Below are positions 13,145 to 38,200 of a stretch of 64,000 bases of DNA, in pieces (position 1 is the stretch's first letter; each line of letters opens with the position of its first letter). The notes below the pieces were generated by a model. That model saw nothing but the letters and a program-made list of their open reading frames with translations. It did no database searches and was not told the DNA's origin. A program made the position numbers and the translations under genes. Source of the DNA: Lactobacillus kimbladii (GTDB lineage: Bacteria; Bacillota; Bacilli; Lactobacillales; Lactobacillaceae); the NCBI RefSeq assembly GCF_014323605.1, contig NZ_SCMB01000001.1:186001-250000 (forward strand). Direction: 5' to 3'.

Positions 13145-13279
13145 TACTAAGACTCCATATAAAAGTCTCTGATATAGACAACTTAATTATAATTCTAAAT
13201 TCAGATATTGTGAGTAAGGTAACTAAATAATTAAGAAAAGTTATTAAACGTACTTAATTTTATTTCACAAAATAGTGTA

Positions 13280-13323
13280 CACAAAAAAGCTAATCTCACC
13301 CAAACTGTAGCAAAATTAGCTTT
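13280..13323 (-). terminator. Terminator between the peptide gene and the flavoprotein gene
   Basis: AAAGCTAAT (13286-13294) pairs with ATTAGCTTT (13315-13323) around a 20-base loop; on the minus strand the hairpin is followed by TTTTTT. It would end the peptide transcript before the flavoprotein gene. Confidence 0.65.
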
Positions 13324-13345
13324 CAAAATTATTTATTTTTATCCG

Positions 13346-13390
13346 TTACGGATCCGGCATTATTATAATTAATCCTCTTAAAAGATTCAT
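13346..13390 (-). CDS. Short hydrophobic peptide (candidate Rgg pheromone precursor)
   Basis: A 14-codon gene encoding MNLLRGLIIIMPDP, stop TAA. The coding case rests on GGGAGGG ending 6 nt before the ATG, the strongest Shine-Dalgarno in the neighbourhood, its own promoter, and a terminator 23 bp after the stop. The product has a basic residue then a run of Leu/Ile and ends in an acidic/Pro tail, similar in kind to the SHP pheromones of streptococcal Rgg systems (usually 20-23 residues, processed to an 8-9 residue C-terminal peptide imported by Opp/Ami). It is shorter than known SHPs and I do not recognise the sequence. It lies directly downstream of an Rgg-type regulator on the same strand. 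Too short for gene callers. Function is inferred from context. Confidence 0.6.
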   Translation of the reverse strand: MNLLRGLIIIMPDP

Positions 13391-13437
13391 GATCTTCCCT
13401 CCCTTCAAATTTCTCACTAATTTATTTTTAAATCCAT

Positions 13438-13483
13438 TTTATAACATATGCATCTGCAAGTATTTAAGTTTTCATATTTGAAA
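13438..13483 (-). promoter_or_regulatory. Peptide-gene promoter with palindromic activator site
   Basis: On the minus strand an extended -10 (TATAAA preceded by TGT) lies at 13443-13438 without a good -35. Upstream, TTTCA-TATT-TGAAA (13470-13483) is a perfect 14-bp palindrome apart from its asymmetric 4-bp centre, centred about 46 bp before the expected transcription start. Rgg activators typically bind a palindrome just upstream of a poor -35, so the geometry fits. It sits immediately after the rgg stop codon. Confidence 0.55.
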
Positions 13484-13489
13484 TATTTT

Positions 13490-14314
13490 TTACATTCTTT
13501 TGACTATTGATTTATAGCCAGATTCATATAAAACTTCTTTGATATTTTCACCTTTTTCCTTATTTCCACCAATTAACTCTGCAAAATAAAGTCCCAAAAT
13601 TTTAGAAAAGGCCAGCTCTATATTGTTAGGCATCTGTTTTATATAATTTAGAGGCTCTTTACATAAATCAAATTTATTTTTCTTAAAGCACCAATCTACA
13701 TAATTAATAAGTAAAACACTTAAAGCAACTTCAATTTTTTTATCTAGTTTATTTATATTTTGATAACGTCTTATAATATTTTTAACAAAAAAAGTAGCTT
13801 CATCTACGCTGTATACCTGCATTAAGTTGGCAATAAGTATAATTCTATAATATTCTTCATCACTATAGCTTTCTTTAAAAATTAAATTTCTAATACTATT
13901 TTTTTGGTCACTAGTTAATTTTTTTAAACCTGATTTATCCTGAGTTTTGACAATTAGCTTAGCAAGCATAATCGAAAATTTAACAAACGGAGTTTGTGGG
14001 TTAATTTTTTCAAAATCTTTAATAATTTTTGTCATTTCATAATTATTTTCTGTGTAAGCTACTTTCATGAATTTGTTTATCAGAATAATCAACTTTTTCT
14101 TACTTTCTTTTTTATTTTCATAGTCATTGAAAAAATCTTTCGGATCAACATCATGTTTTTGCAAAATTTTTAGAAAGTCATTTGTCCCGATATCATTTAG
14201 GCCTCGTTCTACTTTAGAATAAAATGAAACAGAAATGACGTCAGCTGCCATTTCTGTTTGCGTCAATCCTAACTCTTGGCGTAAACTTTTTAGTTTTTTG
14301 CCTATATAGTTCAT
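13490..14314 (-). CDS. Rgg-type transcriptional regulator
   Basis: A 274-residue cytosolic protein. Residues 1-60 are a lambda-repressor-like helix-turn-helix (GKKLKSLRQELGLTQTEMAADVISVSFYSKVERGLNDI), the form typical of Rgg/GadR/MutR proteins, followed by about 210 residues of predicted helical repeats (for example ESYSDEEYYRIILIANLMQVY and IEVALSVLLINYVDWCF), the peptide-binding part of the RRNPP fold. Length matches Rgg (280-290). Rgg proteins bind imported short hydrophobic peptides and activate the neighbouring peptide gene and targets. Start at 14314 follows AGGTGATTAA. AT content and weak hydrophobic codon choice are unlike the fab genes, which hints at transfer. A stand-alone XRE regulator with no peptide is the alternative. 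Confidence 0.8.
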   Translation of the reverse strand: MNYIGKKLKSLRQELGLTQTEMAADVISVSFYSKVERGLNDIGTNDFLKILQKHDVDPKDFFNDYENKKESKKKLIILINKFMKVAYTENNYEMTKIIKDFEKINPQTPFVKFSIMLAKLIVKTQDKSGLKKLTSDQKNSIRNLIFKESYSDEEYYRIILIANLMQVYSVDEATFFVKNIIRRYQNINKLDKKIEVALSVLLINYVDWCFKKNKFDLCKEPLNYIKQMPNNIELAFSKILGLYFAELIGGNKEKGENIKEVLYESGYKSIVKRM

Positions 14315-14347
14315 TTAATCACCTATCTCTTTATTGTTATTTATGCC

Positions 14348-14383
14348 ATTATAATTATGAGCACATTTGCCAAAACTGGCAAA
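14348..14383 (-). promoter_or_regulatory. Promoter of the Rgg-type gene with palindromic operator
   Basis: TATAAT lies at 14353-14348 on the minus strand. TTTGCCA-AAAC-TGGCAAA (14366-14383), a perfect 7-bp inverted repeat with a 4-bp centre, covers the position of the -35 box. A protein bound there should repress. The sequence differs from the palindrome in front of the peptide gene, so a different regulator or a second binding mode is implied. Confidence 0.5.
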
Positions 14384-14428
14384 ACTTATTATTTAATTTT
14401 AATAAAAAAAAGCAAAAGAACAATGATA

Positions 14429-14458
14429 TTAAACTAAAACTCTTAAGTTTGCTATAAT
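14429..14458 (+). promoter_or_regulatory. Promoter of the HD-domain gene
   Basis: TATAAT at 14453-14458 with TTAAAC at 14429-14434, spacing 18 bp, 46 bp before the HD-domain gene. The -35 matches only partly. Confidence 0.45.
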
Positions 14459-14504
14459 TAAGTAAGTAATATCAAATTAATTCAGCTATCTTAGAAGGTT
14501 TCAT

Positions 14505-15863
14505 ATGCCAAATTTTCATAACATTAAACTTAAAAAAGAAGTAGTTTTAAGAGATCCAGTTCACGAGTACATCCACATTGAAGACAAAGTTATACTTGAT
14601 ATCCTGAAAACCCAGGATTTTCAAAGAATGCGCAGAATTAAGCAACTTGGTCCCATTGCATATGTTTTCCCTGGTGCAACACACACACGTTTTGAACATA
14701 ATCTGGGCGTTTATGAATTAACTCGCAGAATTTGCAATATTTTTGCAAAAAAATATCCATCACACAGGCCTGGTGATGGTCTATGGGACGATAATAACAG
14801 ATTATTAGTCGAATGTGCTGCACTTCTCCATGATATTGGACATGGACCGTATTCACATACTTTCGAACATCTTTTTGATACAAACCATGAAAAAATTGGT
14901 CAAAAGATTATCACTGACTCAAACACAGAAATTAATCAAGTCCTGCGGACAGTTTCACCAAATTTTCCAGGTCTTGTAGCCAGCGTTATTGCTAAAACTT
15001 ACCCTAACCCACAAGTAGTCAAAATGATTTCTAGTCAAGCAGATGCCGATAGAATGGACTACTTGCAACGCGATGCTTACTTCACTGGAGTTACTTATGG
15101 AAAGTTCGATTTATCTAGAATTTTGCAAGAAATTCGCCCATATAGTGAGGGAATTTGCTTTACAATGGCGGGAATGCATGCTGTTGAAGATTATATTGTT
15201 TCTCGTTATCAAATGTATCAACAGGTTTATTTCCACAGAGTCGGTCGTTCGATGGAAGTTATTTTACAGCATTTGCTTGAAAGAGCCAAAATCATTTACA
15301 AACAAGGGAATTTGCCAGTTACTCCTAGTTTAGCAAAATTTCTGGCTAATGACTGGACGCTTGATGATTACTTGGAGCTAGATGATGGCGTAATGGAAAC
15401 TAATTTTTCAATGTGGACAAAAGCCAGCGATCCAATTCTATCTGATTTAACTAGGCGCTATCTCTTCAGAAAACCTTTAGCCAGTGTTTGTATCAATCCA
15501 GAAACCAAAAATCTGCTGCCAAAATTAAAAGATTTAATCAAACAGGCTGGTTTTGATCCAAATTATTACACCGATACCAATTCAGCTTTTGATGAACCTT
15601 ATGATGCTTATAAACCGACTGGTAAAAATGCTAACAGTCAAATTGAAATTATGCAAGACGATGGGCAATTAATCGAATTATCACATTTGAGTCCTCTTGT
15701 ACGTTCATTGAATGGTACATTGCAAGGTGATGAACGCTTCTTCTTTCCTAAAATCATGATGTCAAATAGCGATGAACCCCAAATTTTTGATCCGTTATAC
15801 CAAAAATTTCAGCGTTACATTAAAAATGGCACTTTGCGATACTTGAGAAAACAAAAGTCGTAA
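14505..15863 (+). CDS. HD-domain phosphohydrolase (dGTPase-like, YwfO family)
   Basis: A 452-residue cytosolic metal-dependent hydrolase. The first metal-binding His lies in THTRFEHNLGVYELT (about residues 59-73), the HD pair in ALLHDIGHGPYSHTFEH (H109-D110), and the last ligand in SQADADRMDYLQRDAYFTG. The arrangement is that of the SpoT/dGTPase branch of HD proteins; Firmicute homologues such as B. subtilis YwfO and E. faecalis EF1143 hydrolyse dNTPs to deoxynucleoside and triphosphate. A dNTP-pool or housecleaning role is therefore likely, but the substrate is not decided by sequence. Start has AGAAGG upstream. The last codons form one arm of a long hairpin. Confidence 0.88.
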   Translation: MPNFHNIKLKKEVVLRDPVHEYIHIEDKVILDILKTQDFQRMRRIKQLGPIAYVFPGATHTRFEHNLGVYELTRRICNIFAKKYPSHRPGDGLWDDNNRLLVECAALLHDIGHGPYSHTFEHLFDTNHEKIGQKIITDSNTEINQVLRTVSPNFPGLVASVIAKTYPNPQVVKMISSQADADRMDYLQRDAYFTGVTYGKFDLSRILQEIRPYSEGICFTMAGMHAVEDYIVSRYQMYQQVYFHRVGRSMEVILQHLLERAKIIYKQGNLPVTPSLAKFLANDWTLDDYLELDDGVMETNFSMWTKASDPILSDLTRRYLFRKPLASVCINPETKNLLPKLKDLIKQAGFDPNYYTDTNSAFDEPYDAYKPTGKNANSQIEIMQDDGQLIELSHLSPLVRSLNGTLQGDERFFFPKIMMSNSDEPQIFDPLYQKFQRYIKNGTLRYLRKQKS

Positions 15864-15934: not shown

Positions 15935-17527
15935 TCAATCTTTAACTTTTTTGACCAAATGAATTTCTCTGTCGAAAAGCTGTTTCATTTGTTCATTAAA
16001 ACTGTGAGCGATAAAAATAACGGTAGCAGGAGTAGACTTAACTTCATGCAAGATTTGCATAGTAGCTTGCTGATCGATTGCACTAGTTCCTTCATCAATC
16101 AAAATTATTTCACTTTGATGAACTAAAGCCCGCACCAGAACAATTTTTTGTCTTTGTCCTCCTGAGATATTTAACTTGTTCAAATCGATTTTTTGATTTA
16201 ATCCTTCATCAAATTTGGCAATATCACCTGCTAATTGTACTTTTTCAACCAATGACGGTAAAGCGCTCTTTAATTTGTCTACAAACATCGTCATGTTGTC
16301 AGCAATACTTACCGGAAAAAGTACAGGATCTTGGGGAATATAGCCAATTTTACTCATATCTGGGTTAACCACAGCACCATCTTTGTCTTTAAAAATAATT
16401 TGCCCTGAAGTTGGTTTGATTTCTCCTAGAATGAGTTTAAACAAGGTTGATTTCCCAGCTCCAGAATCACCAGTCAGAAGCACTTTTTCACCTGACTTAA
16501 TATTAATGTCTGGAAAAATTAGGCTTTCACCATTAGGAAATTGCAAGCTAAGATCATGGGTACTAAGTGATGCTGGAATTGCTACTTCTTCAGCTTGCTC
16601 TTTTTTAACTGGCGCAGCCGTTTGAGCAATCTCCTGATTTAAAGTTTTGGAGCCCTTTATTTGTCCATAGCGACTAACTATGATTTGAATACTTTGCCTT
16701 AAGTAGAAATTACAATTGCCTACTCCAGTGATTGCACCAAATGCTACTATTTTAGCTTGGAACAAATAACCCGCTAGTAAGAATAAAATTAATGAAAAAG
16801 AAACTGATACCAATCCATTAATTATACTTAGTAATTGCGAAACCCCATTTTGCTTGACATAAGCATCTTCTAGCTCTTTAGCTGCATCATTAGTTACTTT
16901 AAATAGTTTTCCTCCGGCAAAATAACGTTGTAGTTCTTCAAGGCCATTAAGCCACTTTTCTAAGCAATCGAGATATTGATTATTACTCTTTGATATCTTG
17001 GTCATTGAATTTTGTAGTGGCTTTTCTAATAATTTTGGTAACACTAACGAAATAGCCACCATCAAAATAATTGTGAGAAGTAAACTCCAGTGTAATGAAA
17101 TAAGCAGAACAACTACAGATACTAAATTAATAACACCACCAATTAGACTAAAAAATGGTGCAAAATAATTTTCTTGGCTCTGATTCAGGTCATTTGTTAA
17201 TCGATTTTGAATCTGGGCAACAGAATGCTCTTTTTGATCCGCATAAAAGTGAGATACAGATCTTTTTCTGATATGAAAATTAAATTCCTCTTGTTGTTTT
17301 GACAGAAGGAACGCATGCAGTCCTTGTATTATATATTGAAATAGGAAAGGCATAAATGAAATGACATTTATAATTAAAAACTGTTGGAATTTCTGTTGCT
17401 GAATTGCTGTGGTTTCAAGCATAATTAATTGTGTAGTTACAATTGGTAAAGTCCACTCTAAAACGGTAATCAAAATTAGTATCATGAAGCGCAAAGGGTT
17501 TTGCTTATAAAAGTCCTTAATTGTCAT
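15935..17527 (-). CDS. ABC exporter half-transporter (third gene of tandem set)
   Basis: A 530-residue fused permease-ATPase. About six membrane helices occupy residues 1-300; the nucleotide-binding domain follows, with Walker A GDSGAGKSTLFK (about residue 352), Q-loop IPQDPVLF, signature NISGGQRQK, Walker B EIILIDEGTSAID and H-loop FIAHS. It is very similar along its whole length to the neighbouring 527-residue protein (for example SIADNMTMF, KFDEGLNQKIDLNKLNISGG and the membrane domain), so the pair arose by recent duplication and may work as a heterodimer. Exporters of this small type move lipids, peptides or drugs; the substrate is unknown. RBS AGGAGG-like before ATG, 25 bp after the previous gene. 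Confidence 0.88.
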   Translation of the reverse strand: MTIKDFYKQNPLRFMILILITVLEWTLPIVTTQLIMLETTAIQQQKFQQFLIINVISFMPFLFQYIIQGLHAFLLSKQQEEFNFHIRKRSVSHFYADQKEHSVAQIQNRLTNDLNQSQENYFAPFFSLIGGVINLVSVVVLLISLHWSLLLTIILMVAISLVLPKLLEKPLQNSMTKISKSNNQYLDCLEKWLNGLEELQRYFAGGKLFKVTNDAAKELEDAYVKQNGVSQLLSIINGLVSVSFSLILFLLAGYLFQAKIVAFGAITGVGNCNFYLRQSIQIIVSRYGQIKGSKTLNQEIAQTAAPVKKEQAEEVAIPASLSTHDLSLQFPNGESLIFPDINIKSGEKVLLTGDSGAGKSTLFKLILGEIKPTSGQIIFKDKDGAVVNPDMSKIGYIPQDPVLFPVSIADNMTMFVDKLKSALPSLVEKVQLAGDIAKFDEGLNQKIDLNKLNISGGQRQKIVLVRALVHQSEIILIDEGTSAIDQQATMQILHEVKSTPATVIFIAHSFNEQMKQLFDREIHLVKKVKD

Positions 17528-17552
17528 AATATCTTACCTCCTTTTTATTGCT

Positions 17553-19136
17553 TTATGTTTTCGTTAAGTGAATTTCTCTGTCAAACATTTCTTTCATCTG
17601 ATCATTAAAGCTGTGTGCAATAAAGATTACTGTAGCAGAACTCGATGTGATTTCCCGCAAAATTTGCATTGTCGCTTGCTGGTCAATAGCACTGGTTCCT
17701 TCATCAATCAAAAAAATTTCACTTTGATGGACTAAAGCTCGTACTAGAACAATCTTTTGTCTTTGACCACCAGAAATATTCAATTTGTTTAAATCGATTT
17801 TTTGTTCTAAACCATCATCAAACTTGGCAATATCGCCAGCAAGTTGAACTTTTTCAACTAATTGTGGCAGTGCACTTTTTAATTTATCGAAAAACATAGT
17901 CATGTTATCAGCAATACTTACCGGAAAAAGCACAGGGTCTTGCGGAATATAGCCAATTTTACTCATATCTGGATTAATCCTTGAACCATCTTTATCTTTG
18001 AATATGATTTGTCCAGAACTTGGCTTGATTTGTCCTAAAATAAGTTTAAACAATGTTGATTTGCCAGCCCCTGAATCTCCAGTCAACAGTATTTTTTCAC
18101 CTTGTTCAATATTAATATCAGGAAACTGCAACCTTTCACCATTGGGAAATTTTAAATTAAGATTGTGAGTGCTAATAGCGACTGGTCTTACCTTTTTTGT
18201 AGTTTGCACCTTTTCTACTGGTGTCGCTGTTTTAGCAATTTCTTTATTTAGAGTTTCGGACCCCTTCATTTTCCCATAAGAGGTTACTATAATCTGAATT
18301 CCCTGTCTCAAATATGATTGGCAGTTGCCCACTCCGGTAATGGCACCAAACACAACTAGTTTTTGTTGAAACAAATAACCAGCTAATGAAAATAAAATCA
18401 AAGAGAAAATTGCCGATACTAGGCCATTTATTACGGTTAGTAGTTGCATAGCACCATTCTGTTTAACATTAGCATCTTCTAAATTTTTAGCAGCTTTACT
18501 CGTTACCTTAAATAATTTTGCACCACTAAAATAGCGTTGTATTTCTGCAAGTCCATTAAGCCATTTCTCCAGGCAATCTAGATATTTTTGGTTGGTCTTA
18601 GAAACTTGAATCATTGAATTTTGCAAGGGCTTCTCCAACAGCTTTGGCAAAATTAAGGAGATTAGTACCATTATTGATATGGTAACAAGCAAACTCCAAT
18701 GTAATGAAACCAATAATATAATGGTAGAAACTATAATGACTACTCCCCCAATTAAGCTAAAAAAAGGAGTAATATAATTTTGCTGACTTTGAACTATATC
18801 ATTCGTTAACCGGTTTTGAACTTGTGCTACTGCATGGTCTTTTTGATCTGCATAAAAATGTTTAGTGGTTTTATCCCTGATTGCAACATTATATTGCTCT
18901 TCCTGCTGAGACAAAATATATTGTGACAGCCCTTGCAGTAGATAATCTGCCATTAAACATACAAAAGCACATACATTAATAATTAAAAATATTTTAAAAT
19001 TGCCTTGTTGAATTGCCGTAGTTTCTATAATACTGAGTACAGTACCAAGAATTGGCAGTGCATATAAACCAATATTGATTAAAAGTAAAACAATAAAGCG
19101 TAAAGGATTTATCCTATAAAATTCTTTAATTGTCAT
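17553..19136 (-). CDS. ABC exporter half-transporter (second gene of tandem set)
   Basis: A 527-residue fused permease-ATPase, near twin of the next gene. It begins MTIKEFYRINPLRFIVLLL and carries the membrane domain, Walker A GDSGAGKSTLFK, signature NISGGQRQK and EIFLIDEGTSAID. Differences from its twin are spread through the membrane domain, less in the ATPase, as expected after duplication with divergence of transport specificity. It overlaps the first gene of the set by 11 bp, so the three genes form one operon. Substrate unknown. Confidence 0.88.
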   Translation of the reverse strand: MTIKEFYRINPLRFIVLLLINIGLYALPILGTVLSIIETTAIQQGNFKIFLIINVCAFVCLMADYLLQGLSQYILSQQEEQYNVAIRDKTTKHFYADQKDHAVAQVQNRLTNDIVQSQQNYITPFFSLIGGVVIIVSTIILLVSLHWSLLVTISIMVLISLILPKLLEKPLQNSMIQVSKTNQKYLDCLEKWLNGLAEIQRYFSGAKLFKVTSKAAKNLEDANVKQNGAMQLLTVINGLVSAIFSLILFSLAGYLFQQKLVVFGAITGVGNCQSYLRQGIQIIVTSYGKMKGSETLNKEIAKTATPVEKVQTTKKVRPVAISTHNLNLKFPNGERLQFPDINIEQGEKILLTGDSGAGKSTLFKLILGQIKPSSGQIIFKDKDGSRINPDMSKIGYIPQDPVLFPVSIADNMTMFFDKLKSALPQLVEKVQLAGDIAKFDDGLEQKIDLNKLNISGGQRQKIVLVRALVHQSEIFLIDEGTSAIDQQATMQILREITSSSATVIFIAHSFNDQMKEMFDREIHLTKT

Positions 19137-20727
19137 TTTGATTACCTGATTTTTTATTTGATTTTAAATTGATTTGATAATCAAACTTGTCTTTTAGTTT
19201 CGGACTGAAGTTATGTGCAATCATTAAAAGTGTTTTATCGGTATCGAGCAAATTGCCAATTATTTCACTGGTAGATTTACTATCAACTGCACTAGTTGCT
19301 TCATCAAGTAACAAAAATGGTTCATCATGAATTTCAGCCCTGGCTAAAACTACTTTTTGTCTTTGTCCACCTGATAAATTGCCTTGATCTAAATCAACCG
19401 TTGTATTAATTTGATTTGGAAACTTTGCTAAATCTGGTACCAACTGAACTTTTTGGACAGCTTCTTTTAGTTTGCCAACCAGTTTACTGTTAAACATCGT
19501 AATATTATTTGCAATAGTATCAGGAAAGAGCGTTGCATCTTGTGCTATGTAACCTAGTCGAGCTTGCTGAGGCGGAATTTTAGTCCCGTCTTGAGCAGTA
19601 AAGTAGACCTCACCAGTTTTGGGCTTAAGTTGTCCCAGCAGGACTTTGAATAGAGTTGACTTACCTGTGCCTGAATCTCCTGAAAGTAAGACCTTATCGC
19701 CTTTCTTAATAGTAAAATCAGGATAAGATATACTTTCTCCATTTTGATATTGCACTTTCAAATTGTGACATTCAACACCATAAACAACCGTTCCAGGCTT
19801 TTTTTCAGGTATTGGTTTTGTTAAATCAGCAATTTCCTGACGTAACTTTTTGGTTGATCTCATTTGCGTCATTGCGTTGATAACTTCCCAGAGACCATTA
19901 AAAATGGTCGAAGCAAAGCTACCTGTTATAAACCAATCACCCAAAGTGATTATATGATTAAAAAATAGTAGTCCACTGAATAAACTTGACCCAATTTGAC
20001 CAATAGCATTACCTAAGCCGTTAATACTAATCGAGATCCCTTGTACTTTTTTTCTATAAACATTGGCTTCTGCCAGTTTCCGACTATCTTGACCAAGTGC
20101 TCTATCTAATCGGCCACTTGCACTGTATCTGCGCAATTCACTTAAACCAGAAAACCAATTTTCAATTGTATTTAAAAGCTGTGCGTTTTTCTTGGCTGCT
20201 GCGGCTGTGGAATTAGATAACTTTTTTGTCATAATTTTAGGTAGAGTCAACACAATAATTGCCGCTACAGCAACAAATAAAATTAATGACCAGTGAAGAG
20301 TTATCAATGTACCAATTGCGAAGATAAGACTTAACAAGTTGGTCCAAATTTGAATCCAAGGCGTAGCATAATCGTCTGTTAAAATCTTGAGATTATTGCC
20401 TAACTCATTTTGTATTTCTGATACCTTATAACCGCCAGAATTGTAATACCGCCGCATTATTTGAGAACGAATATTATGTAAGCATTCTTGAACTTGCTTA
20501 TTAAATAAAAAGGTTCCCAGTGGTAAGGACAAAACAGTAAGGATTGAGACAGTAAAATCAATGACTAACCAAAATACAAATCTATCCCAATTGCCTTTGG
20601 TTAAATCATTGATTGCATATTTAAAAAGGTATGTTGCCAATGTTCCACAAACGGCATAACATAAGAAAATTATTAAAATAAAAACACCACGAAAAATATT
20701 GGTTTTAAAAAGTTCTTTAAGTGACAT
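19126..20727 (-). CDS. ABC exporter half-transporter (first gene of tandem set)
   Basis: A 533-residue fused permease-ATPase, more distant from the other two. Membrane helices occupy residues 1-300; then Walker A GDSGTGKSTLFK, Q-loop IAQDATLF, signature NLSGGQRQK, Walker B FLLLDEATSAVD and H-loop MIAHNF. Each set of motifs is complete, so it should hydrolyse ATP. RBS AAAGGAT precedes the ATG. It opens the operon of three; a TTGACC lies about 80 bp upstream, but no convincing -10 follows. No peptide precursor or protease domain is next to it, so peptide export is possible but not shown. Confidence 0.88.
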   Translation of the reverse strand: MSLKELFKTNIFRGVFILIIFLCYAVCGTLATYLFKYAINDLTKGNWDRFVFWLVIDFTVSILTVLSLPLGTFLFNKQVQECLHNIRSQIMRRYYNSGGYKVSEIQNELGNNLKILTDDYATPWIQIWTNLLSLIFAIGTLITLHWSLILFVAVAAIIVLTLPKIMTKKLSNSTAAAAKKNAQLLNTIENWFSGLSELRRYSASGRLDRALGQDSRKLAEANVYRKKVQGISISINGLGNAIGQIGSSLFSGLLFFNHIITLGDWFITGSFASTIFNGLWEVINAMTQMRSTKKLRQEIADLTKPIPEKKPGTVVYGVECHNLKVQYQNGESISYPDFTIKKGDKVLLSGDSGTGKSTLFKVLLGQLKPKTGEVYFTAQDGTKIPPQQARLGYIAQDATLFPDTIANNITMFNSKLVGKLKEAVQKVQLVPDLAKFPNQINTTVDLDQGNLSGGQRQKVVLARAEIHDEPFLLLDEATSAVDSKSTSEIIGNLLDTDKTLLMIAHNFSPKLKDKFDYQINLKSNKKSGNQNDN

Positions 20728-28738: not shown

Positions 28739-29211
28739 TTTGCTTCTCTACCTCGTTATTTATAAAAATTCTATCAATACATAATATTGTATACTAAAAA
28801 ATGGCTGATACAAATAAAGTAAAGCATTGCTAACCTTTTCTTAATACTCTTGCATAAATGTAAAAAAACTGCAAAATTTTTTAAAACTAAACTATAAGTT
28901 TTTCATTCAATTAGCTTTTATATTTTGCTTCTGTTTTTTAAAAGATTTGAGATTTAAAAATGCAATATACTTAAAATACTATATACATATATACTTACAT
29001 TAAATTTATTTTATAATATCAATTTCATTATTAGCTTCTCTGCTAGCATAAATTCATCACCTTGTTTGCGCTTATTTTTACACTATATATAAATTTTTAC
29101 TCAGTTTAATTTCTTTAAGTTTTTAATTTATAAACTAATGATATTATAATCGCAATAATTGACATTTATATAGGCATCTATTAAATTGATAATTGTATAG
29201 TAGTTGAAAAT
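28739..29211. other. AT-rich divergent intergenic region
   Basis: About 470 bp between two divergent surface-protein genes, extremely AT-rich. It must hold promoters for both, but so many AT stretches resemble -10 boxes that I cannot pick one. No gene, repeat or RNA is evident. Confidence 0.5.
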
Positions 29212-29227
29212 AAGAAAGGACATTTGT

Positions 29228-32200
29228 ATGTTAGGAAAGAATAATAACAATGAACGGGTGAAAAAAATGGCAATGCAAGCTAAGCAAGACCATTTCTCAA
29301 TTCGTAAATTGAGTATTGGCGCTGCCTCAGTATTGCTTGGCTTTACTTACCTAGGACTTAGCAGTAAAACAGTTAGTGCTGATACTGTTATTCCACCCCA
29401 ACAAATAAGCAAAAAGTCAAAAGTAACAGCAAAAATTGATGCTCAGGCAACTCCCACTCCCACCCCTAGGGATGATGCTGCTCAAAATTCAACTACTGCT
29501 ACTAATAATATAACCAAAACCACTAAGTCAGAAAGCGAACCCAATTTAGGAACGTTTTCTGGCTTAAGTTCTTTTTTAAGGGAAAATAGCAGCAATAGTG
29601 AGCAAAGTAATGCAGAGGCCAAAACGGACAGCGAAGACATCAATGCGGTTAAAGATGACAAGCAGAATTCTGTCACTGACAATGTGCAAAACGATAATGA
29701 GCAGAGCGGCCAAAATAAAACGGCTGATCCTACCGCAGTTGATACTGCAGATAGGGATCAAACCGAACAAAAGCAAGACAGCTTAACTACTAAAATCACC
29801 AACAGAGATTTAAGAGATGTTGGCGAAAAAAGAAGCGTAGGTAACTGGAAGGACTTTATTAGTGCTCTAACAGATAGTAGTGTAAGCGAGATCGATATCA
29901 CCAATAATATTAGTGCTGACAAAAACAAACGCCACTCCAACTTTCAAGGCAGAAAATTATTAATTAAGTCTGCTGGTAATGCGAAGTACACTCTTGACTT
30001 TAAGGGTATCGATCCCGCTCTTGCCAGTAATTCTTCTTTAGATATGACTTACGAAAACCTGATACTGAAGAGTACTGACTATTATGGTGTCATTAATACC
30101 TCTAATATGAATAGAGACCAAAAAGCTAGAGTTACTTTTAGAAATATTATCTTTTATGGTTCACAGTTAGTCTTTACCAGAAATAATACCGATATTATTT
30201 TTGAAGGACAAATTCACGCGGAAACTGTCAAAATTCCAAGTAGTGTCGGTTGGTTATTTGATGGTAGCAATCAGCAACTTTTAGAATTTACCAATAGCAA
30301 TAATAGCATTACTTTTAAAGCGGGTTGCCACTTTGACGGTTCAACATTTGGCGGCACCTTGATTGAAATGAGAGGAGAAGGCAACTCCTTAAATGTTGAA
30401 GAAGGAGCAGTTGTTAACCTAACCCCACTTAAAACGTACGACGGCACAAATGATGCTAATAACAGTGAACACGGCAATCCAGTCAGTGCCATCTTTATTA
30501 GTGATGATGCACAAGTAACTGTTCATGGTCAGGTGAACATTAACATCGGACAAAGTGAAGGAATTAATTATGCGGGCAAACAAAATAACGGTCAAGCCAG
30601 AGCTATTTACCTAGATAATGCCAAATCAAAAGTTAATATTGGTAGAGGCGGCATTATTAACGTCAACACAAATGGTAATATTTCTACAAGAGATAAACAA
30701 AATTTGATTTATATTGGGGGTGACTTTGCCATTAACTCCGGCGGTGCTCTCAAGATTACTGGGCAAAACATGGGCAATTATACTGGTTCGCTAGTGCAAA
30801 TTGATGGTACAGCCAATGTCCAAAACGGTGGTTTTGAAATTCAATTAGTTGGTAATGCCGGTACAGGTGCAATAAAGCTGGTTGATGTGGCAAACACCGG
30901 GCAATTGATTGTCAATAACCCAACATCTCTTGTTTTAGATGCTCATCTGAACAACAACGACCGCACCAGTATTATCGGTGAAAACAAAATTACCGTGACA
31001 AATGTTCGTCAATACTTAAACCTTAGTGATCTTTTGAATGGATCAGTTGATAGCAACAACAATATAGTGCTACCGCCTTTCCATGTCTTACAAGTTGAAA
31101 AAACCGCTAAAACTGTTGCAGTTAACAATTTGGAAGTTTTAAACGGTCAAAGAATCTTCGACTTAGAAAAAGCCAAAAAAGATAGTCCACAGCTTAATGC
31201 TATTCTCAATAAAGCGCCTGAAAACTTCCAGAAATTGCTGCAAAAGTACAATCATCAAAGGTATGACCAGCTCTTTCGGGCTATCGTCGAAGCAACTTTT
31301 TCCAGCAAGGATAATCCAGGCTACAATAATATCAGATTTACGCCGGCTAATCAAAGTGGGTTCTTAGACATAGACCCAGAAGATGTGACAGTAACCAGTC
31401 AAGAAGATGGTTCAAAACTAGTCAAAGGTCATGTATTATACTATGATCCTGCAAAAGATGGTCCTGATAGTGATAACTTTTTTAAGAATGTCTTACCCGG
31501 TGGTACTGAAGCCTATGTTTTAGCCAGGTTTAAAGATAGTGGTGTATACAAAAATGGTCAAGCTGTTATTGATTCCACAATAGCTAATCCATACGCTGAG
31601 ACAGTTGATACTTATCGCGGTGAAGCAAATGATTTGGCATTTTTACCAACAAAATTTGCCGCTAAAGTAGCTCCAGACGGCACCTTTACCATTACTATTC
31701 CTGCTGAAATCACCACTAAAATGGCTAAAGACGCTACAATTCAACTAACTCCACATGCGAACTTTATTGAATACAGTCCGTTAGACGTTGCCAGTGGCGT
31801 TCGCCCTACTACAGTTAGTCTGGGAATTAAACCATTTAGTGCAATACAACAAGAAGCAGCTCAGGCAATTAAAGATGCCATTAACAAAGCTAAAGCCGAT
31901 AAGCCAAATAATTTGACTGCAGATCAGGAAAAAGCATTTACTGACGCACTGAATAAAGCCGCTAAGTATGCTGCAAATAGTACGGACAGCAATTATGATT
32001 CCGGCAAATCAGTTTACGGGGTGCAACCTTCCAAGACTGCGATTAGCGAAGTAAATAATAGAAAAAAGACCGTTTTAGACTTGATAGAAAAGGCTGCACA
32101 AACGGCTAAAGGTCAAGCAGAGTATGAAAATACCAAAAAGGATGCAAAAGATAAGTTAGATAGCCAGGCTAAAGAACAAATTTCTAAGTTTCCTTCACAG

Positions 32201-35200
32201 TCAGAAAAAATAAATGCAGCAAAAGATAAGGCAATAAGCACTGTTGATGCTCCCGAAACAAACGCTACTAACCTCGATCAGGTTGTAAGTGACGGGATTG
32301 ATGCCATCAACCAAATTGGTAAAGATTATCGTGAAAATGCCAGAACAGATATCAAGCAAGCAATTTCAAACGTGGAAAATGCTATTGCTGAAGCTGCTAA
32401 AGATGACAACGTCCAATCGCCAGTTGACGAATTGATTACCGGCTTAAAAGATCGGCTAAAGCGACCAAAAGAAATCGTTGCTACCGAAGGTGATCTTGAT
32501 CAAGACGATAATGAAAAAGCTATCGACAACCATCAAAAAGAAGCAAAAGATGCAATTCAAGGCGTTCAGGATACTATTGCTGCCGTCAAAACTTTAGAAG
32601 ATGCTGCTAAAGAACAAATTACGCAGCATGCAGATGATAAAGAAGACATTCAAAATGCCTTAAATCAGGCAATTAAAGATATTATTAGCAGCAATAATCC
32701 GAAAGAAGACGTTAATAAGGGTCTTGATCATATTAAGGGTACCCATACCGGTAAGCAAAAAGACCAGGCAGCAAAAGATATTAAAGAAGCAGCTGCCCAA
32801 GCTAAAGAGCGGATTAAAAACTCTGGTTTATCTGAAGATGAACAAAAACAATATTTTGATGAAATAGAGCAAGTGGTTGCTGATACGACAACTACAACTG
32901 GTGATACCAGTAAATCTATTTACGGCACTGATGATGACGAAATTATCAATAAGAGAAAAGCTGCTGCTGAAAGTTTAATCAATAAAGCTGCTGCTAAATC
33001 AGAAATTGTTGGTTATACCAAAGGCTATGAAAATGTCCTCGGCAAAGTAGACAATGCCGAGACAGCTATGGCAGATGCATTAAGTGCAATTAATAAAATT
33101 GAAGATAATGCTGCCAGTAGCCAAAATATTACCCAAATACTAAAATCGACAAAGGATAATATTTTAAACGCTTTTAAAGAAGATGCTAAAGCACAAGTTA
33201 ATGCAGATGCAGATACTGCTAAGACCAACTTAGGAGTAACTAAAGAAACTAATATTGATGACGCAGTCACCAATGCCGGTAACACGATTGACAGTCACAA
33301 TTCTGCTACTGATATTAAACAAGACATTATTAACGGTAAAAAGAATGTTTTAGACGCTTATAAGACGGCTGCTAAAGCGCAAGTTAAACAAGACGCAGAT
33401 GAAGCAAAAAGTAATTTAGGGGTTGACCAAGAAACTAATATTGATAACGCGGTCACTAATGCTGCCAACACGATTGATAGCCATGACTCACTTACCGATA
33501 TTAAACAAGACATCATTGATGGTAAAAAGAATGTTTTAGACGCCTATAAAACTGCTGCTAAAAACCAACTAGAAGCAATCAAAAAAGATGTTATAGCTAA
33601 AATTCAAAATAACCCTAACTTAACGGCTAAAAATAAAGATGAAGCTGTAAATAAAGCCAATGATTTGCTTACTGGAGATCAGGGATATTACGACCGTATT
33701 GATAACGGAGAAACTCCAGCAGACATTGACAAAGCTACCAAAGAAGGTACTGCTGCATTAAACGATTTGCTTAACGAACAGAACATCAAGGGCCAACGCA
33801 ATCAAGCTATTACGGATATTCAAACTGCTAGAGACAAAGCAATTGCTGAAATTAAGGGCAATAAGAACCTGAGTGATGCAGATAGTACTAAGTATCAAGA
33901 TCTAATTAACGCTGCAGCCGATAAAGGGATTGCCAATGTTTCTCAAGACGAAGATGAAAATGCAATTGAAACAGATCGAGACAATGCTATTAAAAATATT
34001 ACAGACTATCAGAATAATGCCGCGAACGCTGCTACGAATAATTTAGATCAACAACACAAAACTGCAATTACAGAAATTGAAAATGCAGCTCAAGCAGCTA
34101 AAGACAAAATTGATGGCTTTGCTGACTCCGATTTAAGCCCAGAAGATAAACAACATTTTAAAGAACTGATTGCTAAAGACTTAGCTAATGCCAAGGCAGA
34201 TATTAATGCAGCTAAAGACACTGATGGTATTAATTCTGCCAAGCAAGCTGCTAAAGATAGGATCAACAAGGACTTGGCAGCTGCTCAATTGGCAGTCGCT
34301 AAATCTCAAGCAAATAAAGCTTTGCAAGCCGAGAGAGAAAAGGACTTAGCCACTATCAATCAGGCTTTTGAAGATAATAAAATTAATAGCGAGCAAAAAG
34401 ACGCCTTAACAAGTAAGATTAATGGCTTCTACGAAACAGCAACCAGCAAGGTTTATAATGACTTTACCATTGACCAAGTAGTTAAAGATAGAGATGACGG
34501 CGTTGCTGCTATGGCTAATGTTGCTGGCAGTATTGCAAGCGAAGAAGCAAAATTCTTAGAGCAACAAAAAAATGAGGCATTAACTAACCAAGATAATGGA
34601 CTAATTTCTTTAGCTGAAACAATTCGTGCGGATATCGAACAAAATCCTAACCTTTCCGGTCAGGAAAAGAATAACTATTATGGAGAAATTGCTACAGCAT
34701 TAACGACAGCAAAAACTAATATTCAAAATGCCACGACTAAGGAAGAAATTGCTGCAGCAGCTAATGCTAGTCGCGAGGCCTTAAATAAAATTCGCGATAA
34801 AGTAGCCCTCCAGTCAACTAGAAATGCTGCCCTGAAAGAATTATTGAGCGTTTACAACGATGTAAACGATAAAATTTCAGGTTTACAAAATGTCAATAGT
34901 AGTACAAAAGACGGGCTAATTAAGCAGTTAAACGATTACTACAATGATGCAGTTAACAAAGTTAAGAATGCTCCTATTGATCAAGTTGATACTGAAAAGC
35001 AAACAGGCAACGATAACATGCGTAAGGTAATCCGCGATGCTCAAAGCCTTGATACCAATATTAATAACGCCAAGAACGAAATTGATAAAATTGCTACACA
35101 AGCAATTGACAACGTTAATCAGTCTTCAATGTCTGATGCTGATAAGACCGAGACTATCTCAAAAATAAATGACGAACGGGATAAGGCTAAGCAAAATATA

Positions 35201-38200
35201 GAGTTGCAAAAGACTAATGATGCAGTTGACCAAGCTAAAGGCGACGGCAAAAATGCTATTGACCAAGTAATAGCAGATGCTACTGCTGCAGATTTGGCAG
35301 AGGCCAAAAATAACAGCGAAAAAACTATAAAAAACGCTGCTCTTGAAGCAATTAATAGGTTGAATTCCTCCTATAATTCGCTGAGCGAAGAAGAACAGGC
35401 TGATGCTAAATCCCGATATAATCAGGCAATCACAGATATTAATCAGGCTGCTGCTGATGCTATCAACAAATTACAAAACGTCAAAACCAAAAATGACGTC
35501 AATAAAGTAACTACCGATACTATTACTGCCATTAATAAAGCTGAAGCCAGCGGCAACTTGGCAATTACCAAAGCGCAAGCTAGAAAAGCTATTAAAGATG
35601 CCGCAAACGAAGTCAAGAATAGCCTGAAAGATAAGGCAGATCAAGATAGCGTTGATTCAATTATTGATACTGCTAATTCAGCCATTGATGCGGCCGAAGA
35701 AAGTAATTCAGTCTTGGACATTAAAGATACTGCTATTAAGCAGATAAAAGCTATTAAGTCTACTGCAGATGATAAATATGCTCAGGAAATTAAACAGGCT
35801 AAAGCTGCTGCTATCAAAAAGCTTACTGAAGAACTCAACGGTCAAACTAATAATCCTGATGTCCTGGGAATCTTATCTCAAATTGACCAAATTGCAGGTT
35901 TAAGCGACGAGGAAAAGGACAAATATAAGAGTCAGGCAACGGATGCTAAAAATTTAGCTGTTAACCAAGTTAATGGTCAACAAACTGAAACCGATATAGA
36001 TTCTGCTAAGAATACTGGAATTATTAACATTGACAAAGCTTTGAGTGCTGCCCAATTACAAGCTGCTAAGAATAATGCCAATAAATATTTAGAAGATATT
36101 GTCGAAACAGCTAAGAATGATATCAATAGCATTGACCAGTCAGCCTTAAGTGACGAAGAAAAAGCCAAATTGATTGAACAAATTAATTCAAATAAAGAAA
36201 CGGCTATCCAAAATATTAATCAAGCGCAAACTCCAGCTGAAGTTGAAAAAGCTAAGACAGCAGGTGAAGGTGCAATTAATGGTATGGTGCAAAATGCCCA
36301 GAATAATGTTGCTTTACTGCAAGAACAAAATGTCGCATACAATAAACTGGTTGAACAAGCGAAAAAATTGAATCAACGCTTAAACGATGACTTGCTGCAA
36401 AATAAACTTGATCAAAATCAGGTTGACGAATTAAGCAATGCTATTAGCGCAGCTTTAAGCACTGTTAAAACCAAGATTTCTGCTGCAACTGCTCAAGATA
36501 AAATCAATGATGCCAGAAGTAAAAGTGAGACTACTCTTAACAACATTGGCAGTGATATTGATAAAGAAGAAGCCTTAACTAAAGCTCTAAACGATCTACA
36601 AATTGCTGCCACTAGCGCTAAAGCTAAAGCTGATAAAACTGAAGACAGAGCTGTCGCTGAAAAAATGAAAGCCCAAATAGACCAAGAGCAAAAGAAAGCT
36701 GCTGCTAATATTATTGCCGCTAGAAATAATAAGCAAAACACTATTACGCAAATTCAAACAGGTGCAAATGAAGGCATTACCACAATTAGCAAATTAGGTG
36801 ATGACTTTGATAATAAAAATCAAATAGTTAAGGGTCTGAAAGAATATGCTGCAAGTGCCAAAACTGATATTGATGGTTTAGACTTAGCCGGTAATGATGT
36901 CACTAGCGGATATAATGATATTGAACGAGTTTTAAATAACTTTATTAGTTTAATTTATGCCGGTACAAGTGATAAGCTGTCCCAGTTAGAACAAGATGCC
37001 AAAACAAATATTGATCAGGCCAAGTTGCCTAGTCAACTGACTGCGGAAAAGAATACTCTGATTAACAAGTTTAAGGAATACCTTAAAAATAAAGGGGAAA
37101 TTGCCAGTGTGGCAACTAATCTAGAGCAAGACCAAATTGAAGGACTGCAAAAGCAACTTGATGAAGCCGTCAATAGAACTATAGATAAGATTGCGGATGT
37201 TAAACTTGATAATACTTACGAAAATGCACTAGCACAAGCTCAAAATGCCCAACAAGGTAAAGCTCAACAGGATGAAATTCCTAATTTCGGTAAAAAAGAA
37301 ATCGACCGTATTTTCCAAGTTGCGCAAGAAAAAGCAGAAATAGTCAAAGCTAAACAAGAGGCAATCTCTCAGATCGAACAAGCTCAAAAAGAAGCAAATG
37401 ACGCAATAGAAAAATCAGGTTTGTCACCAGAGGATCAGCAAAAGCAGAAAGACCAGATTAAAACTATTGTTGAACAAGCAAAAACTGACATTAATTCTGT
37501 TCAACAATCTGAAACAGAGCCTAAAGACCAAATAAATGGCAAACGAGATCAAGCAGTTGACAAGTTCAGTGCCATTAAAGATCAAGCCGCCCTAGCTGGT
37601 CAAAAGACAAAAGCTGAAGGTATTCTAAAGGATAAACAAACTAAGGCCCATAATATAATTGATCAGTCTCAATTAACTGCCAAGCAGAAGAAGGCAGCTA
37701 AAGCTGCAATTGATGATGCTTATCAACAGAGTTTCCAGGATATAGAAAAGACTAAAGCAATTAGCAACATCCCAGATGAAGCAACCATTGGTCAAAACAT
37801 TGATCGTCTGTTAACTAAACCTGAGACCGGCACTGAACCAGAATGGTTTAATGATGAGCAAAAAAATGCTTTTGCAGGTGCTGATGGCGTGACTGGCATC
37901 AAAAACGCCTACAAGACATTAAAAGACAGATTAAAAGATAAACTGGCTCAAGAAGTGCAAGATCACATTGATGAACAAATAAAAACTATTGATGAAGCTC
38001 TAAATATCCAGACTGTCAGTGCTGCTTATGATGAGGCTATGACTATTATCAATAAGGAAAATGCTAAAGCTGACATTGACGAAGAAGCTGATAAAGTTAC
38101 TAAGGAAATTGACGGTAATGATAAATTATCTACTGAATCAAAAGACCGGCTGAAAGAGCAAATTAAAAATGATAGCCAAAAGGCTAAGGATAAAATTGAT

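Follow-up and report, generated by a model that had tools for sequence, protein, structure and literature searches.

An Rgg-family regulator gene, rgg, and a 14-codon open reading frame (ORF) lie next to each other on the minus strand of a 64,000-nucleotide stretch of the Lactobacillus kimbladii genome, which is hereafter called the window and to which the coordinates below refer. The rgg gene (13490-14314), taken from the ORF list and assigned through Pfam and NCBIfam, codes for a protein of 274 amino acids. The peptide gene (13346-13390, minus strand) comprises 14 codons plus a stop, codes for MNLLRGLIIIMPDP, and is recognized from its ORF, its conservation, sequence shuffles and codon counts. 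Its ribosome-binding site (RBS), GGGAGGG (13397-13403, minus strand), lies six bases before the ATG, and the coordinates thus confirm an earlier note on this DNA that had described a 14-codon ORF directly downstream of the regulator, on the same strand and with a well-placed GGGAGGG. Between the two genes, comparison of repeats revealed a putative inverted-repeat operator (ATTTCAAATATGAAAA, 13469-13484, minus strand), which is absent from that note. The note also proposed an extended −10 element; a −10 does exist, but the position that proved to be conserved is the hexamer TAAAAT (13436-13441, minus strand), 27 nt after the inverted repeat and with no −35 element common to the relatives. Downstream of the peptide gene, the terminator that had been suggested is seen as an intrinsic-terminator-like stem-loop (13285-13324, minus strand) with a 16-bp stem followed by T residues and a folding z-score of −3.64, and a simple consensus terminator scanner did not include this stem among its matches. 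In the L. laiwuensis locus (L011), a hairpin-forming insert (AAGTGACCCCC...GGTGGTCACTTC) is located inside the terminator region when compared with the near-identical L010 locus.

The regulator consists of a helix-turn-helix (HTH) domain at approximately residues 1-65 and a C-terminal domain at approximately residues 66-274. Both domains score above their curated Pfam cut-offs (PF01381, HTH_3, 33.6 bits against 23; PF21259, Rgg_C, 32.1 bits against 27), and the NCBIfam model TIGR01716 scores barely above its own (37.2 bits against 36.9), such that the original description of an Rgg-type regulator of 274 amino acids is borne out by Pfam and, narrowly, by NCBIfam. An N-terminal HTH joined to an Rgg C-terminal domain, as expected of an Rgg/RRNPP receptor, is accompanied by a conserved adjacent peptide gene in all 11 full-length orthologues described below. 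When a profile of the regulator family was searched against the PDB, its best solved relative was Lmo0325 of Listeria (PDB 4RYK; approximately full length, E = 2e-11), which is only a remote relative of the window Rgg and is not known to have a peptide. The search also retrieved PrgX chains and chains of the Rgg2/3 type, a naming that in part follows PMC9765709. RopB-labelled chains were absent from the PDB matches of both the family profile and the C-terminal-domain profile, and the latter alone retrieved no Rgg-type structure. Upstream of rgg, a block running from ttttgccag to caaatgtgctcataattat (window 14330-14400) is conserved at the same place in several of the loci L009-L014 and in the window contains the inverted repeat TTTGCCAAAACTGGCAAA (14366-14383); this block may be an additional site of control that acts on rgg itself.

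A search of 75 genomes of the genus uncovered ten full-length rgg orthologues in addition to the window's own, giving 11 at 46-100% identity, and the next full-length matches reach at most 34%. Partial matches were found in G037 (58 residues at 88% identity, at a contig end) and in G068 (approximately 100 residues at 43%). The carriers include L. huangpiensis, L. laiwuensis, L. kullabergensis, L. melliventris, L. apis and L. helsingborgensis, as well as strain W8174, three uncultured Lactobacillus MAGs and the genome G032. These carriers are honey-bee gut lactobacilli and presumably belong to the Firm-5 group. Among 397 genomes drawn from the family, no further match approached the family score of 459 bits, the next best reaching 191, and the 25 genus matches listed from the same draw include no other bearer.

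A short ORF that is preceded by an RBS, runs in the same direction as rgg and lies directly 3′ of it is present at all 11 full-length loci. The earlier note had named the conservation of frame and ribosome site beside orthologous regulators as a check on its reading of the locus as an Rgg/short-peptide circuit; when run, this check did not refute the reading, and at the level of sequence comparison the 11 orthologous loci lend it support. Most of the peptides resemble MDLLRxVIIIxPDP. The window peptide, MNLLRGLIIIMPDP, is shared with L. huangpiensis, and other loci encode MDLVRGLIIIVADE, MDLLRNVIIILPEP (two genomes), MDLLRDVIVVMPQR, MDFLRRVIIIIAED, MDLLRNVIIIITDL and MDLLKTVVIILPDP. The L. apis version, MSLALFKPVIIIVTD, is divergent, being a 15-amino-acid ORF that is out of register with the others. 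Genome G032 encodes MDLLRDLIVVVLRSNKF downstream of rgg together with two more tandem peptide genes, MSFLRTVAIIITD and MDFLRTLVVIVTEP, and each of the three has one operator.

As a test for chance ORFs, the 250 nt downstream of rgg were subjected to 2000 dinucleotide shuffles per locus. Depending on the locus, an RBS-preceded ORF of exactly 14 codons appeared in 0.25-1.5% of shuffles, and the similarity to the window peptide was matched by 0 of 2000 shuffles at ten of the 11 loci, a comparison that is informative at eight loci because at two of the ten, the window and L. huangpiensis, the peptide is identical to the query; at the L. apis locus, 24 of 2000 shuffles attain the similarity score of the ORF. 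In-frame codon changes are mostly silent (pS 0.59, pN 0.29), the alternative reading frames having pS/pN values of 0.38/0.33 and 0.18/0.40; all values were pooled over all pairs of eight distinct ORFs such that the counts are not independent. This set leaves out L. apis, W8174 as a near-duplicate and, from G032, the two ORFs whose length differs. Constraint is strongest near the start of the peptide (codons 2-5, pN 0.15) and weakest at its last three residues (pN 0.43). A chance ORF is ruled out by the conservation at all 11 loci, the shuffles and the codon pattern, and judging from its substitutions the peptide ORF evolves as a coding sequence. The peptide varies most in its last three residues (ADE, PEP, PQR, AED, TDL and others), and the terminal PDP is therefore not the mark of a class that had been suggested earlier. 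Among the eight aligned peptides, position 6 is G, N, T, D or R, and position 2, at the start of the precursor, is D in seven.

The most common form of the operator in the relatives is TTTTCAAATATGAAAA, and this sequence or a near variant is located between rgg and the peptide gene at ten of the 11 loci; the peptide promoter of the MAG G062 has no operator, though both rgg and the peptide gene are present. Eleven operator-bearing peptide promoters, which derive from nine genomes including three promoters from G032, could be aligned, and in every one of them TAnnAT starts exactly 27 nt past the repeat. In 2000 mononucleotide shuffles the best aligned TAnnAT count never exceeded four of 11, where it must be kept in mind that the promoters are related and hence do not constitute eleven independent cases. 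A scan of 60 positions found no other hexamer pattern with four fixed letters that is common to at least six of the 11 promoters, and therefore no −35 element of this type is held in common. An operator combined with a −10 element in the absence of a −35 element has the look of an activator-dependent promoter. We infer that the peptide promoter is activated rather than repressed, and the geometry of operator and −10 indirectly supports self-activation of the peptide gene. The protein that reads the repeat would presumably be this Rgg.

The L. kimbladii genome contains two operator sites with at most one mismatch, namely the one at the peptide promoter and a perfect site that falls between glpD and manA, upstream of the latter (glpD and glpK were named by reading). 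The gene manA, for mannose-6-phosphate isomerase, was confirmed by TIGR00218. The search pattern was derived from peptide promoters, where matches are consequently by construction, and the manA sites are the independent ones. An exact repeat is present upstream of manA in 11 of the 12 rgg-bearing genomes, as counted from the orthologue carriers plus G037 with its fragment, and the twelfth genome, G062, differs by one substitution. Among the 60 genomes with a completeness of 90% or more and no more than 5% contamination, the manA site occurs in nine of nine rgg bearers (G037 by its fragment) and in none of the 51 rgg-less genomes (Fisher p = 7e-11), a value not to be read as independent evidence because the bearers form one clade in the manA tree and the co-occurrence amounts to approximately one independent event. 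This tree covers 28 of 30 loci; L115 (L. apis) and L124 were left out, and the manA region of L115 does carry the repeat.

Four of the 51 rgg-less filtered genomes hold the repeat pattern elsewhere than at manA, and the repeat was seen in none of the 16 rgg-less manA upstream regions that were read. Matches to the pattern in G018, G044, G061, G067 and on contig C79 of G062 were rejected as operators, being upstream neither of manA nor of a peptide of this family. Two incomplete MAGs, G063 (66% complete) and G066 (54% complete), have the manA operator and no detected rgg orthologue. Across 13 manA regions, 14 of the 16 repeat columns are invariant versus 0 of 25 before the repeat (the far side) and 16 of 40 after it (the near side), which is partly by construction because the regions were chosen by the repeat pattern; no manA region of an rgg bearer in this comparison failed to match it. 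The distance from the operator to a putative −10 at manA, as read from the sequences, is approximately 28-29 rather than 27, and thus the mode of control at this gene is less clear. A wider regulon was rejected, since a search of the L. kimbladii genome allowing two mismatches returned 29 sites versus 37 in a reversed control and therefore no excess.

On the same strand and 3′ of manA, closely spaced genes code for a hydrophobic protein of 131 amino acids, a response regulator and a histidine kinase (L157, 5258-8839, including manA). Many models match the response regulator, none of them over its cut-off, and the histidine kinase was named by reading. Given this close spacing, the operator may also reach the two-component system, as would be the case if manA and the genes behind it form an operon. 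The L. kimbladii genome also encodes a second, distant ManA-like protein (G000:C10:25361-26263; 27% identity) without the operator pattern.

The C-terminal domain of the receptor (codons 66-274; 13493-14119, minus strand) is hypervariable, as judged by comparing identities among the orthologues. Relative to the window, this domain is 40-54% identical in amino acid sequence, with the exception of L. huangpiensis (100%), and the HTH is 65-88% identical, again with L. huangpiensis at 100%; a flanking HD-domain protein retains 84-98% identity at ten loci. In ten distinct orthologues, 35 of 65 HTH columns and 23 of 209 columns of the C-terminal domain are invariant. L. kullabergensis and L. laiwuensis have identical HTH domains, and their C-terminal domains are 49% identical. 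At the DNA level, this pair shows 84-100% identity, mostly at least 95%, in the flank upstream of rgg and across the gene's first 200 nt, and 60-72% from there to the end of the gene. Comparisons that involve L. kullabergensis show no recovery of identity downstream, the sequence there being a different one. For the window against L. laiwuensis, a trough extends from the middle of rgg through the peptide gene, and identity returns to 80-100% in the downstream gene.

Similarity of the C-terminal domain correlates with that of the peptide (Mantel r = 0.48, p = 0.0002; without one near-duplicate, 0.30, p = 0.012), and similarity of the HTH does so as well (r = 0.48, p = 0.02; without the near-duplicate, 0.37, p = 0.043, exceeding the value for the C-terminal domain), and therefore the correlation may reflect shared ancestry. 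It is mainly the mosaic pattern, not this correlation, that suggests that the C-terminal domain and the peptide are exchanged together as specificity cassettes. We would give even odds to a broader proposal, in which bee-gut Lactobacillus undergoes pherotype switching, with the sensing domain and the peptide swapped as one cassette, the DNA-binding domain changing slowly and a two-site regulon of the peptide gene and the manA operon remaining fixed. If this is true, species or strains share a population-controlled mannose response and use different peptide dialects. In a comparison of the window (13150-14800) with L. huangpiensis (L008), rgg is identical and the 250 nt behind it are 99.6% identical in DNA, although the manA proteins of the two differ by 4%. 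A recent exchange between them is possible, but the flank upstream of rgg, at 98%, is highly similar too.

Genes of the types needed for peptide transport were also identified in the L. kimbladii genome. An EcsB-family gene adjoins a gene read as an ABC ATPase, in a PptAB/Ecs-like arrangement, and the oligopeptide-binding family SBP_bac_5 has seven matches, two of which are pieces close together. On the basis of the conserved gene pair, the coding constraint, the operator, the −10 spacing, the manA site, the mosaic divergence and these exporter- and importer-type genes, all of which are observed, we favour an autoinducing peptide circuit of the RRNPP (Rgg) type in bee-gut Lactobacillus that includes control of manA, a reading to which we assign a probability of roughly 80%. 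Once translated, the 14-residue peptide would leave the cell, probably through the EcsAB/PptAB-type ABC exporter, might be trimmed to its C-terminal part, and would return by way of an oligopeptide permease. It would then bind the C-terminal domain of the co-encoded Rgg, and an Rgg dimer on TTTTCAAATATGAAAA would recruit RNA polymerase to a promoter that has no −35 element. Expression of the peptide would rise in a positive feedback, as would that of manA, perhaps together with the genes for the hydrophobic protein, the response regulator and the histidine kinase behind it. As a specificity cassette, the C-terminal domain of the receptor would co-diversify with the peptide; the DNA-binding domain would evolve more slowly, and the operator and the manA target would stay fixed.

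The most serious competitor is a circuit that is real but does not signal between cells, in which the peptide is a purely intracellular co-factor or feedback element of Rgg. This is unlikely in our judgement, even though the peptide is short, has a conserved MDLLR start and lacks the Lys-Lys doublet that the accessible text of PMC9765709 describes as common in exported propeptides. The genome has an EcsAB/PptAB-type exporter and Opp-type binding proteins, neither of which is specific for signalling, and a receptor domain and peptide that are hypervariable between close species fit selection on specificity between cells. We hold it to be very improbable that the ORF is instead the leader peptide of a transcription attenuator, where ribosome stalling controls the next gene. 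Such a leader would account for the Leu/Ile/Val-rich composition with its run of Ile/Leu codons, the strong ribosome site and the terminator-like hairpin directly behind the ORF. However, the gene downstream is not constant, as a FAD-dependent reductase-like gene is within the flank at four of the 11 loci (the window, L. huangpiensis, W8174 and L. laiwuensis; the L017 flank spans only 1500 nt), and the three tandem G032 copies each have their own operator and promoter, and on these grounds the attenuator was rejected. It also sits poorly with the recurrence of the operator at manA and with the location of the ORF in the region whose divergence accompanies that of the receptor domain. The least probable alternative, a small toxin or other effector that is regulated by Rgg without being its ligand, would suit a short hydrophobic peptide with tandem copies in G032, but the peptide gene is found beside every full-length receptor copy and within the stretch that varies with the receptor C-terminal domain.

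Among the systems described previously, the circuit looks like a variant of known Rgg short-peptide systems, and its closest kinds are the leaderless communication peptides (LCPs) of RopB-clan receptors and the streptococcal short hydrophobic peptides (SHPs), in the manner of both of which it would work. The earlier proposal of a new class is too strong, because leaderless Rgg peptides of very small size have been reported before, among others in Limosilactobacillus reuteri (PMC10518010). As in the LCP/RopB systems covered there (SIP-RopB, the L. reuteri LCP), an Rgg-type receptor is located beside a very short RBS-preceded ORF in Lactobacillaceae, and in the LCP system of S. salivarius the −35 position of the peptide promoter is immediately preceded by the receptor site. 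Unlike LCPs, which in that account are mostly 8-10 amino acids long with some longer and charged exceptions named, the main form here has 14 residues. LCPs are also ultrasmall and aliphatic or aromatic, whereas the bee-gut peptide contains charged and proline residues, with a conserved charged MDLLR start and an acidic or proline-containing end. The operator TTTTCAAATATGAAAA also differs from the two repeats quoted in PMC10518010, and the candidate target here is manA.

Streptococcal Rgg/SHP groups I-III, as presented in PMC13361665, share with the bee-gut circuit the Rgg family, PptAB-type export and Opp-type import genes, and a peptide with an Ile/Val-rich C-terminal part (DI[I/L]IIVGG in SHPs, a VIII core here). 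SHP genes are there divergent from rgg or convergent and overlapping with it, whereas the gene described here is co-directional and downstream. The Asp/Glu conserved at the pheromone N-terminus of groups I and II likewise has no counterpart, position 6 being variable. A tie between Rgg/peptide circuits and mannose metabolism is known from pneumococcal Rgg144 and Rgg939, which are induced by mannose and whose regulons, according to the authors of PMC5913232, contain no direct mannose-catabolism gene; here, in contrast, the repeat is upstream of manA itself. The accessible text of the RRNPP surveys PMC9765709 and PMC10075063 yields no match to 'kimbladii', and PMC10518010 uses no word starting with 'lactobacill' in its main text other than the family name; the pair may nevertheless be listed in these surveys.

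Firm-5 lactobacilli rank among the dominant symbionts of the honey-bee gut (PMC4241670), and no Rgg/peptide circuit in them was encountered among the matches listed in the literature searched, at the level of titles and the openings of abstracts. The circuit has just two detectable operator sites, including the one at manA, which makes it unusually easy to work with. Mannose-6-phosphate isomerase is needed for growth on mannose in another bee symbiont, and some carbohydrates of the diet are toxic to bees (PMC5090037); population-level control of manA could therefore be of consequence for the host. For studying how RRNPP specificity evolves, the mosaic receptor/peptide cassette provides a naturally occurring series of receptor and peptide pairs, both matched and mismatched.

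The six other Rgg-like genes of the L. kimbladii genome showed no hydrophobic RBS-preceded ORF of 6-35 amino acids within 500 nt. Other Lactobacillus Rgg genes (28-32% identical; L032, L028, L029 and L036) are followed by different RBS-preceded short ORFs, and ORFs beside such genes encode MFIPWYPL, which is LCP-like, MVIVPEPYGLIPEIKLYK (two genomes) and MVVTAIICYGSS. Near position 1501 of L078 and L083, from two rgg-less genomes, we noticed an ORF of approximately 29 amino acids that starts with MFVRQ, has clustered cysteines and is preceded by a ribosome site. Elsewhere in the window, three consecutive genes of approximately 530 amino acids each lie at 15935-20727 (minus strand), the first two of which code for closely similar ABC transporters with a fused ATPase, and an ORF of 3651 amino acids at 29204-40159 (plus strand) possibly codes for a giant surface protein.
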